Source: Gammaproteobacteria bacterium
GTDB taxonomy: Bacteria > Pseudomonadota > Gammaproteobacteria > GCA-001735895
Direction of reading: 5' to 3'
Length of the DNA stretch: 46,045 nt
Assembly: GCA_024229615.1 (NCBI GenBank)
Contig: JAAESG010000579.1
Span: 1-46,045 of the forward strand
The notes under the pieces were generated by a model, which was not told where the DNA came from, did not search any database, and saw nothing but the letters and a program-made list of their open reading frames with translations. Below, piece by piece: positions 29,059 to 32,503 of the stretch (positions within the stretch are counted from its first letter, which is position 1; the number at the start of each line of letters is the position of its first letter). A program made the position numbers and the translations under genes.

Positions 29059-29345
29059 ATACCCCGCTTTCACAAAATGTAGTCTGTTAAGTGGCTGAAA
29101 TGTTCATACTATGCTCAAGTCAATAGAGTACTTAAAGCGCCGAACACCAACCCAGACCCTGAAATCGTACATAGAAAGTGGACCTTAAAATGCCAAACTT
29201 AAACGGCTCAGAGACGGCACCAAGGTCGTTTACCAATCTCGTAACTTGAGTTATACGGACTCCGCCTGTCTCAGTTAACATAGAGTCTGTAAATTCGCTG
29301 TTGTTATACGATCACTCCAAAATATCTGACAGAATAATAATTTCG

Positions 29346-30020
29346 ATGAACAGTAAAACCCAGGAAAGCAACTTCTCCTTTTTTAGGGACCTGCCCGAAG
29401 ATTTAAGGAATACGATTGATAGAGATTCTAAGATAATAATGCCTGAGAAAGGTCAGGTCATTGTTCGTAAAGGCGAAAGAATAGGCGGCGCATATTTAGT
29501 CAAGTCAGGCAAAATTCGGGTTTATACGCTTGATTTAAATGGAAATGAAAAGCCGATATACGATATTGAAGAAGGTGAAATTTGTATTTTCTCCGTCAAT
29601 TGCATTTTCCAAAAGATACTATACCCCGCTTGGGTAACAGTTGACTCGGATAATACGCATATTCTTTCAGTGCCCACTAAGACATTTAGACATTTATATG
29701 ACAATGAACGTATGGTTAGAGACTTTATTTTTAATTCACTTTCGCAACGTCTCTTTGACCTCATGTCCGCTATTGAAGACGTTACTATTCACAATGTTGG
29801 TCAACGTATTAATAGTTTGTTAGTGCGTTTATGCCCTGAAAATCGACGGTTAAATATTAGTCATCAAGAGATTGCCACAAGATTAGGCACCGCGAGAGAG
29901 GTGGTTTCAAGGCATCTGAAATTTTTGGAAAAATCTGGATGTATCAGACTCTCGAGAATGAAAATACAGATTCTTACTCCTGACGAACTTGTGAGTTTGC
30001 CACCTAAAAATGATCAGTGA
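29346..30020 (+). CDS. CRP/FNR-superfamily transcriptional regulator
   Basis: This 224-aa protein has a cyclic-nucleotide-binding fold at residues 15-130 (IVRKGERIGGAYLVKSGKIR) and a C-terminal HTH (ISHQEIATRLGTAREVVSRH). The recognition helix carries R-E-x-x-x-R (AREVVSR), the CRP pattern that reads GTGA half-sites, rather than the FNR pattern for TTGAT. There is no N-terminal cysteine cluster, so it is not an oxygen-sensing FNR; two internal Cys (EICIFSVNCIF) could respond to redox. The CRP-type cAMP arginine pocket is not obvious, so the ligand is open. Codon usage is more AT-rich than in the first 28 kb. A GTGA-N6-TCAC site overlaps its stop codon and precedes the DUF4142 gene. Confidence 0.92.
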   Translation: MNSKTQESNFSFFRDLPEDLRNTIDRDSKIIMPEKGQVIVRKGERIGGAYLVKSGKIRVYTLDLNGNEKPIYDIEEGEICIFSVNCIFQKILYPAWVTVDSDNTHILSVPTKTFRHLYDNERMVRDFIFNSLSQRLFDLMSAIEDVTIHNVGQRINSLLVRLCPENRRLNISHQEIATRLGTAREVVSRHLKFLEKSGCIRLSRMKIQILTPDELVSLPPKNDQ

Positions 30021-30031
30021 CTCAAGTCACT
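30016..30031. promoter_or_regulatory. Candidate CRP-type operator (GTGA-N6-TCAC)
   Basis: AGTGACTCAAGTCACT is a 7+7 bp inverted repeat and contains the exact GTGA-N6-TCAC core of CRP boxes. The centre lies about 41.5 bp before the start point predicted from the -10 box at 30053, the standard class II activator position. It sits between the CRP-type gene and the DUF4142 gene. Confidence 0.6.
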
Positions 30032-30058
30032 TACAAGTGCCTGTCAGATATTTATAGT
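30031..30058 (+). promoter_or_regulatory. Candidate promoter of the DUF4142 gene
   Basis: TTACAA (30031-30036), 16 nt, then TATAGT (30053-30058). The -35 element is poor and overlaps the candidate operator, consistent with a promoter that depends on an activator. The ATG is 34 nt downstream, after an AGAGGG ribosome site. Confidence 0.45.
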
Positions 30059-30092
30059 GTTCCTCGACATTTTTTAATAAAGAGGGTAACCC

Positions 30093-30617
30093 ATGAAATC
30101 ACTGGTCAATACAATGGCATTGTTCGTTTTTACAATCATCGGTGTCAATGCCTATGCCGGTAATTCACCAGGCGAAAAAGAGCTTTATTCGATATTTGAT
30201 CAAGTCAATGGGTTTGATATCGAAACAGCGAGTTTGGGCGTAGTTCAGAGTGAAAATAAAGCCATTAGAGAGCTGGCAGCAATAGTGCTTCGAGATCACA
30301 GCATGGTTATTCAAATGGCTCGAGATACCGCAAAACAGCATAGTATTGACTACAAAATAGATCCCGCCAATGTTTCAGCAGCTACTCATAAGAAAACGAT
30401 TAATAAATTACAAGGCTTGTCCGGAAGGGAATTTGACAAAGCCTATTTGAGGCACGAAGTTGAGTTTCATAACTCCGCCATTAACGCGGTTAAAACCGTA
30501 CTTATTCCCGCTGCACAAGGTACAGAGCTCGAGGTATTATTGAAAGCGGTACTACCGGGTTTCGAGCATCACTTAAAGCTAACCAAAAAGTTGGCTAGCG
30601 ACATTGGCGCTCTTTAA
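30093..30617 (+). CDS. DUF4142 family exported protein
   Basis: This 174-aa protein has a clean signal peptide, with cleavage expected after NAYA (MALFVFTIIGVNAYA). The mature part is a ferritin-like four-helix DUF4142 domain: NGFDIETASLGVVQSENKAI, LRDHSMVIQMARDTAKQH, and LRHEVEFHNSAINAVKTVLI. The His/Glu-rich helices could hold a metal, but no function is established for the family; stress and envelope roles have been proposed. An AGAGGG ribosome site precedes the ATG. It is a single gene and is probably controlled by the CRP-type regulator just upstream, judging from the operator position. Confidence 0.88.
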   Translation: MKSLVNTMALFVFTIIGVNAYAGNSPGEKELYSIFDQVNGFDIETASLGVVQSENKAIRELAAIVLRDHSMVIQMARDTAKQHSIDYKIDPANVSAATHKKTINKLQGLSGREFDKAYLRHEVEFHNSAINAVKTVLIPAAQGTELEVLLKAVLPGFEHHLKLTKKLASDIGAL

Positions 30618-30702
30618 TTAGATTATCTCGCTACGAAGACTCAGTATCATCCTGCCCCCTGGTGAGCGATGCGGGCTAGAGCTATGGATTCCGGTCTAGT
30701 CC

Positions 30703-30761
30703 GGCATACAGCCGCATCTGTCCGGCGTCAGCATCCGGGATACTGATGCAATATGCAGCGC
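30703..30761. repeat. Degenerate copy of the family-1 palindromic repeat
   Basis: Read on the minus strand, GCATCAGTATCCCGGATG followed by ACGCCGGACAG and TATGCC parallels the interior of the 88-bp element at 8802-8889 (ACCAGTATCCCGAGTGATG, ACGCAGGACAG, TATGCC). The outer arms are not conserved. It adjoins the broken end of an IS110 transposase. Confidence 0.4.
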
Positions 30762-30767
30762 AATTAT

Positions 30768-31060
30768 CTGTCGGTATATGCCGTAGCCACAAGGGCCGGC
30801 TTCATAGGAAAACAACAATACCTCACCGCCAAATTCCTGACTCAATCGCGCCACCAGCTTCGCCACCTCTTTTGGCGGGTTTGCTATTTCTCCTCTTGAC
30901 TGCGGGTTATTCCGACCGGCTATCGCCACCGATACCGCTATAGTGTCCTCCTTGTGCGTATCAAGACCAATGTAGGCTGATACAAAAAGTTCGCCTGCCG
31001 GATCGCATGCAGTGCGGATGACGTTTCGATTTCAATCGCTTTTTGGTTAAACTGTTTCAT
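30768..31060 (-). mobile_element. IS110-family transposase N-terminal remnant
   Basis: From an ATG at 31060 with a good ribosome site (AGGACAGG), MKQFNQKAIEIETSSALHA runs until a frameshift near 30985. The next frame gives AYIGLDTHKEDTIAVSVA and EIANPPKEVAKLVARLSQEF, GEVLLFSYEAGPCGYGIYR, the DEDD-type N-terminal domain of IS110/IS116 transposases. The rest of the protein is missing. It is inactive. Confidence 0.75.
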
Positions 31061-31252: not shown

Positions 31253-32503
31253 ATGCAAAGCCTTGATGTCAAACTTGATCTCCCAACGCTTAAAGGAATT
31301 CGAAGCCTGGAATTATTCAGCGACGATCAATTGAGTAACCTCGCTCAATCGCTGACAGTCGATGTCGCAAAATCGGGTGAACAACTCATTACGGCTGGAG
31401 AGGTCGGCAGCTATAGCTTGTATATATTATCGGGCGATGCTATCAGCCGAGCCATAGATGGCGTTACTCTAAAAATAAAATCGATGAAAGATGGTTATCT
31501 TCAACCAATTGCGCAACTTCGACCCAGCCTCTATGACGTTGATGCAATTAGCACGGTGCATTATTTAAAAATAGGCGACGAAGTATTATCCGAGCTATCG
31601 AAAGCATTGGAAAGTGAGAATCCTGAAATTAAAGTCAGATTTGTTGATCGGGGTGAAAAAGCGAACCGATTAACATCCGAGTTATTTCGGGATATATTGA
31701 GTGGAAATATAAGGTTGCCGACCCTGCCGGATATCATAGTCAAGGTCCAACAGGAATTTGCCAAAGAAGATTGTGATCTTGATAGAATTCACAATCTTAT
31801 CCAGTCGGATCCCGTGATAACCGCATATCTATTGAAACACGCCAATAGCCCCCTGTATCAGGGAAGCTCACCCGTGGAATCCTTGCGGCAGGTCATTGTT
31901 CGCCTGGGCATGAAGGCGGTGCAAAACCATGTCGTGATTATCGCAGCCACGCGGTTGTTTCAGGAAAAATCAGTCGGCATGAAAAAGCGGATGCGGCAAC
32001 TTTGGAAGAGCAGTCGCAGAGTAGCCGCATTTAGCCGGGTGCTCGCCGTGAAATCCGGCATTTTCGATCCTGATTCTGCTCAAATGGCCGGACTGTTAAA
32101 CGACCTGGGCGTCATTGCAATCCTGGAATACGCCCAGGAGAACAGTGACCTGTACGATGATGAGAATGCTCTTGACCAAACCATTGATGCATTGAGGCCC
32201 CAAATCAATAGTATGTTACTGCAACAATGGAATTTGGGGGATGAGCTGGTTACGGTGGGAGAAGAATCCCGAAGCTGGTTTCGTAACAATTCTGTCAGCA
32301 CCGATCTTTGCGATTTGGTCCTGATAGCCCGGTACCATAGTTATTTGGGAACGGAGCAGGCGAATCAGTTACCGCTGCTCTCCAAATTGCCAGCATTTTA
32401 CAAGCTGAAACTGACTGATTTCGACTCACAGGATAGTATGGAGTTTATGAACGAATCACAGGATGAGGTTGCCGCGATCGAACAAATGCTAGGCAGCATC
32501 TGA
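31253..32503 (+). CDS. Cyclic-nucleotide-binding-like and HDOD domain protein
   Basis: This 416-aa cytoplasmic protein has an N-terminal cNMP-binding-like fold (residues ~15-120; QLITAGEVGSYSLYILSGDA, YLQPIAQLRPS) and a HDOD domain from ~140: LPTLPDIIVKVQQEFAKED, NLIQSDPVITAYLLKHANSP, SLRQVIVRLGMKAVQNHVVI and MAGLLNDLGVIAILE. HDOD is related to HD phosphohydrolases but lacks the catalytic HD pair; such proteins link second messengers to signalling. The cNMP pocket arginine is not clear, so it may be structural only. It follows an IS110 remnant and is followed by a good terminator, so it is monocistronic. Confidence 0.88.
   Translation: MQSLDVKLDLPTLKGIRSLELFSDDQLSNLAQSLTVDVAKSGEQLITAGEVGSYSLYILSGDAISRAIDGVTLKIKSMKDGYLQPIAQLRPSLYDVDAISTVHYLKIGDEVLSELSKALESENPEIKVRFVDRGEKANRLTSELFRDILSGNIRLPTLPDIIVKVQQEFAKEDCDLDRIHNLIQSDPVITAYLLKHANSPLYQGSSPVESLRQVIVRLGMKAVQNHVVIIAATRLFQEKSVGMKKRMRQLWKSSRRVAAFSRVLAVKSGIFDPDSAQMAGLLNDLGVIAILEYAQENSDLYDDENALDQTIDALRPQINSMLLQQWNLGDELVTVGEESRSWFRNNSVSTDLCDLVLIARYHSYLGTEQANQLPLLSKLPAFYKLKLTDFDSQDSMEFMNESQDEVAAIEQMLGSI

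Follow-up and report, generated by a model that had tools for sequence, protein, structure and literature searches.

At class II promoters, of which galP1 is one example, Escherichia coli CRP binds a palindrome of TGTGA-N6-TCACA register with its centre at -41.5, next to a weak -35 element. NtcA, the global nitrogen regulator of cyanobacteria, occupies GTA-N8-TAC at -41.5. DUF4142 proteins are widespread and, to our knowledge, have no established role. The base contacts of CRP are made by R180, E181 and R185, and this R, E, R set is found across most members of the Crp/Fnr family (PMC12531629). One DUF4142 protein, MllJ, belongs to the cluster for methylolanthanin, a lanthanide chelator, and is described as exported and ferritin-like (PMC11317620).

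The locus considered here lies in a 46,045-nt stretch of gammaproteobacterial DNA, which was analysed as a whole (the window), and consists of a Crp/Fnr-type regulator gene followed by a DUF4142 gene, with a palindrome before each of them. The arrangement probably represents a self-contained cassette in which an autoregulated class II activator of the Crp/Fnr type, responding to a ligand other than cAMP, switches on an exported DUF4142 protein. A dimer of the regulator would bind the palindrome at 30016-30031 and, from its position at -41.5, would touch RNA polymerase in the class II manner, activating DUF4142 transcription from the TATAGT promoter; it would also bind the palindrome at 29241-29254 and control its own gene. 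Regulator, site and target would form a unit of scattered occurrence in Pseudomonadota, arranged in the other genomes as a DUF4142-crp operon. The features of the locus are:

29241-29254, no strand assigned: GTAACTTGAGTTAT, the second palindrome, which precedes the regulator gene and is predicted to serve its autoregulation
29276-29281, plus strand: TAACAT, the -10 box predicted for the regulator gene, which would put the second palindrome at -40.5
29346-30020, plus strand: gene of P0001, a Crp/Fnr regulator of 224 aa with REVVSR as its recognition helix and with C80 and C86 at the site of the former nucleotide pocket
30016-30031, no strand assigned: predicted dimer site AGTGACT-CA-AGTCACT, centred at -41.5 of the DUF4142 promoter and overlapping the regulator stop codon
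30030-30058, plus strand: predicted DUF4142 promoter CTTACA - 17 bp - TATAGT, start expected near 30065
30093-30617, plus strand: gene of P0002, the DUF4142 protein of 174 aa that is the predicted target, with a signal peptide recognised by eye

The regulator and the DUF4142 protein

P0001 belongs to the Crp/Fnr superfamily, with matches to PF00027 (cNMP-binding fold, N-terminal; 4e-12) and PF13545 (Crp-type winged helix, C-terminal; 2e-13) that both exceed the cut-off. An earlier reading of this DNA, made from the sequence only, had reported the RExxxR pattern in the recognition helix, and the pattern is present as R184, E185 and R189, the last replaced by K in two relatives. The helix residues alone do not predict GTGA, since R, E and R are common to most of the family (PMC12531629).

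As a cAMP-dependent CRP orthologue P0001 was rejected: the residues of the cAMP pocket are replaced, and the NCBIfam CRP model gives 49 bits against a cut-off of 266. The nucleotide cassette FGEL...PRQAS of the genome's CRP-type homologue, L113, aligns with FSVN...YPAW in P0001. Judged from this pocket, the ligand of the regulator is not cAMP. FNR was likewise rejected, as the Fnr model gives 34 bits against 228 and inspection of P0001 for the FNR 4Fe-4S cluster found no N-terminal cysteines; the FNR type of this genome is L114. Of the two cysteines in the C-x5-C stretch, which lies at the site of the lost nucleotide pocket, C80 is kept in all aligned relatives and the other is Ser in three paired relatives. 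The invariant C80 at this position makes a thiol or metal signal plausible. A literature search for persulfide-sensing Crp/Fnr regulators found none. A scan of genome contigs with the regulator as query returned only Bacteroidota relatives with 29-32% identity, which were of no use for the site, and among the 31 species of the genus that were covered the regulator occurs only in the source genome.

P0002 scores 88 bits with DUF4142 (PF13628; cut-off 27). A single-sequence structure model, examined for a ferritin-like four-helix bundle with a metal site, is all helical and, with a pLDDT of 64, too weak for placing metal ligands; its fold matches are weak and include DUF305 (2qf9) and YciF (4eru), none at E<=0.001. 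Comparison by sequence with solved structures yielded no significant match, the copper protein CopM appearing at E 0.43. One other species of the genus carries the gene, 77% identical, and no close relative can be compared at the window's own site since the contig of this congener ends upstream of the gene. This part of the window is A+T-rich, with 38.6% G+C compared with 45-57% in the surroundings. Downstream, a small minus-strand frame at 30696-30929, with no Pfam match, looks by eye like the broken end of an IS110-type transposase, and the next gene (31253-32503) encodes an HDOD-domain protein.

The palindrome at the regulator stop codon

The sequence-only reading had placed a GTGA-N6-TCAC palindrome just downstream of the regulator, with its centre about 41.5 bp upstream of the start that TATAGT predicts, and the coordinates agree with both points. 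GTGACTCAAGTCAC at 30017-30030 is the core of the perfect 7+2+7 palindrome AGTGACT-CA-AGTCACT, with the regulator stop codon (30018-30020) inside its GTGA, and TATAGT at 30053-30058 predicts a start at about 30065, 41.5 bp from the palindrome centre at 30023.5. A scan of the window lists CTTACA-17-TATAGT as a promoter-like site. The poor -35 element that had been claimed is found in the four relatives described below and not in the window itself, where CTTACA matches the consensus at 4/6 positions with the ideal 17-bp spacing and is not clearly poor.

The motif alone is little proof, because about one match per window is expected by chance (0.84 for GTGA-N6-TCAC). Across the genome it matches 57 times, compared with 42 for the reversed pattern as a control; the chance of a match in the 150 bp before the DUF4142 gene is 0.00135. 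Two further repeats were observed nearby. A short inverted repeat, CACTTACAAGTG (30028-30039), overlaps the main palindrome and extends into the -35 region in a register that differs from that of the relatives, and CTCAAGTCA (29114-29122), between an isochorismatase gene and the regulator, is a partial third copy with nine bases in common with the main site.

Pairing of regulator and DUF4142 genes in other genomes

The search for the pair covered genomes counted at 1,082, some of them repeated. A close DUF4142 relative followed directly by crp, in an operon, was found in four further genomes: G273, of the same class as the source; G534 and G486, of one family in another class; and G445, of a third class. 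The pair spans three classes of Pseudomonadota, the source included. The five paired regulators form one clade (support 97/93) on long branches, and the paired DUF4142 proteins fall into one clade (SH-aLRT 99) that also holds L036, L049 and L104, for which no crp partner was seen. The upstream region of L036 is cut off; L049 and L104 are close DUF4142 relatives without the regulator, which counts against the proposed cassette. No regulator stood beside the more distant DUF4142 genes examined, and in this sample the dedicated regulator accompanies only one DUF4142 subclade. No further pairs turned up in the class of G445 or in the families to which G273, G339, G445 and G486 belong.

An SCO4226-like gene comes first in the operons of G534 and G486, with PF14026 matched in G534. 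In G486 (L095 3831-4463), an IS110-family transposase gene splits this first gene and leaves the promoter palindrome, DUF4142 and crp intact. The clade that holds the paired DUF4142 proteins also includes L104 (3920-4480), carried by a plasmid of Gemmatirosa kalamazoonensis, a member of another phylum; it has no adjoining crp and matches the DUF4142 of G445 at 50%. Apart from this gene, plasmid searches returned distant relatives only, and a scan of viral sequences found nothing.

Conservation of the site and of its spacing

Palindromes in the Crp register precede all four operons: TGTAACATTTGCTACA in G273, TGTATCTTTTGATACA in G534, TGTATCTTTTGGTACA in G486 and TGTGATATCGGTCACA in G445. Their centres lie 68-82 bp before the first start codon, compared with 69 bp in the window. 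The exact GTGA-N6-TCAC recurs only in G445, in another class; the window site carries AGTGA and the sites of the other four genomes carry TGTR. TGTR-N8-YACA, a pattern widened from GTGA-N6-TCAC after the relatives had been seen, is present in the 150 bp ahead of the operon in 4/4 paired relatives and ahead of 0/38 DUF4142 genes that lack the regulator (Fisher P 9e-6, with G534 and G486 sharing one family and not fully independent). The shorter GTR-N8-YAC gives 4/4 and 2/38, respectively.

The sequence-only reading had set the class II offset on the window alone, ahead of any look at the relatives, and a -10 matrix was scored at each of 48 offsets from the palindrome centre. Offset 30, which corresponds to a centre at -41.5, takes the top rank among the 48, and does so even when the window is left out (permutation P 0.0004 with all four relatives, 0.011 when three independent ones are used). 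The hexamers at this position are TATAGT in the window, TATCTT, TAAAAT and TACCAT in three relatives, all of the form TAnnnT, and GCATGC in G273, where a weak -10 box (CATGCT) fits one bp further out, at -42.5, and a better one (TACATT) stands at offset 45. By sequence, the layout of a class II Crp-type promoter is found in the window and in three relatives, and with a centre at -42.5 in the fourth. The -35 places of the four relatives read CAGATC, CAGACC, CAGACC and CAGAGC and match TTGACA at 2-3/6 positions. The proposed link between the regulator and the DUF4142 gene is supported by the conservation of pair, palindrome and spacing in four other genomes. The site is kept where both genes are kept, in distant rather than close relatives: the palindrome in 4/4, the -10 box at class II distance in 3/4 and one bp off in the other.

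A second palindrome before the regulator gene

In the window the gene order, crp then DUF4142, is the reverse of that in the relatives, so the DUF4142 promoter does not serve the regulator gene. The palindrome upstream of the regulator (29241-29254) is identical to the first at 11/14 bases, for which P is 0.028 over 287 bp. Sequences no more than one mismatch away from GTRACTYRAGTYAC occur at seven places in the 5.2-Mb genome, two of which are the window sites, 0.8 kb apart; the pattern was drawn up after both sites had been seen, and the count serves as support rather than as a clean test. No common theme was found among the other five near-matches. The description of a single GTGA-N6-TCAC site was right in that such a site is present; it missed the site before the regulator, and GTGA is too narrow for the family of sites, TGTR-N8-YACA.

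The same region contains an inverted repeat with two perfectly matching 13-nt arms, AAATATCTGACAG in the 5' leader of the regulator (29320-29332) and CTGTCAGATATTT just past its stop codon (30041-30053), with a P of about 0.0008 by shuffling. It may allow leader and tail to pair in a read-through regulator mRNA, or another factor may bind it. The loci of the four relatives were searched for pieces of the repeat, and none was found.

Which protein is likely to bind the palindrome, and to what effect

We infer that the neighbouring regulator is the binder and that it activates rather than represses. The main rival holds that the site is read by L113, the genome's cAMP-type CRP homologue and a global regulator, which has an intact-looking nucleotide cassette, the helix REMVHR and orthologues across the genus; GTGA-N6-TCAC is, moreover, the CRP core. 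This is unlikely, as the palindrome tracks the neighbouring regulator in the comparison of paired and unpaired DUF4142 genes, three relatives carry GTA-N8-TAC, which is not the CRP consensus, and the regulator gene has a site on either side, the two being closely similar and part of a genome total of seven.

Repression of both DUF4142 and itself by the neighbouring regulator, which would occlude the -35 region in the absence of a releasing signal, appears quite unlikely. The palindrome does overlap the -35 position, and the window promoter, with its -35 match and ideal spacing, might fire without help; the -35 places of the relatives, however, are so poor that their promoters would be hardly active unaided, and the fixed distance from site to -10 box is expected of an activator and unneeded for a repressor.

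It is very unlikely that the palindrome acts as an RNA hairpin ending the regulator message, as a terminator or processing signal: it folds well (-6.5 kcal/mol, z -3.1), overlaps the stop codon and coincides with a listed terminator-like site, but that site is on the minus strand, where no gene reads toward the palindrome, the plus strand lacks a T run behind it, the palindromes of the relatives precede the first gene rather than standing behind one, and that of G273 hardly folds (-0.9 kcal/mol).

Activation by the neighbouring regulator looks like an ordinary mechanism in an undescribed conserved cassette. A search for literature joining Crp/Fnr with DUF4142 found none, which is weak evidence of novelty with most subscription journals outside the search. 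Thiols or metals are suggested as the signal because C80 sits at the lost nucleotide pocket, an SCO4226-like gene is a partner in some genomes and the DUF4142 protein MllJ belongs to a lanthanide-chelator locus; the DUF4142 protein of the window is perhaps metal-linked. We tentatively consider, at somewhat less than an even chance, that this is an undescribed, horizontally spread cassette for periplasmic metal or thiol stress, in which a C80-based Crp/Fnr sensor controls DUF4142 and, in some genomes, an SCO4226-like nickel-responsive protein through autoregulated class II sites. The unit of regulator, site and target offers a handle on DUF4142, since knowledge of the activating signal would show to what the exported protein responds. 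In addition, the paired regulators provide a natural series on how the target of a Crp-type helix changes: REVVGR with GTGA, REVVAK with GTAT and GTAC, REVIAR with GTAA, and REVVSR with GTGA and GTAA.

Comparison with known systems

The cassette resembles MllJ in that its DUF4142 protein is predicted to be exported, and the MllJ locus is one of metal handling; unlike in the cassette, no Crp/Fnr partner is mentioned for MllJ in the available portion of its report (PMC11317620). Among solved structures, the closest relative of P0001 by sequence is the Crp/Fnr regulator of PDB entry 3dv8 (1e-23), which has the same C-x5-C at the former nucleotide pocket and differs from the cassette in having no known link to DUF4142. 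The sites of G273, G534 and G486 resemble those of NtcA, reading TGTA-N8-TACA with identical or almost identical spacing, whereas P0001 matches NtcA weakly (39.8 bits, cut-off 245) and NtcA acts globally on nitrogen. Unlike E. coli CRP, the regulator has no cAMP-contact residues and a local target beside its own gene, its motif is relaxed to TGTR-N8-YACA, and Ser, Ala or Gly stands at the position of CRP G184. With CRP at class II promoters the cassette shares the register of the palindrome, the centre at -41.5, a -35 element that is weak in the four relatives, and the base-contact residues.
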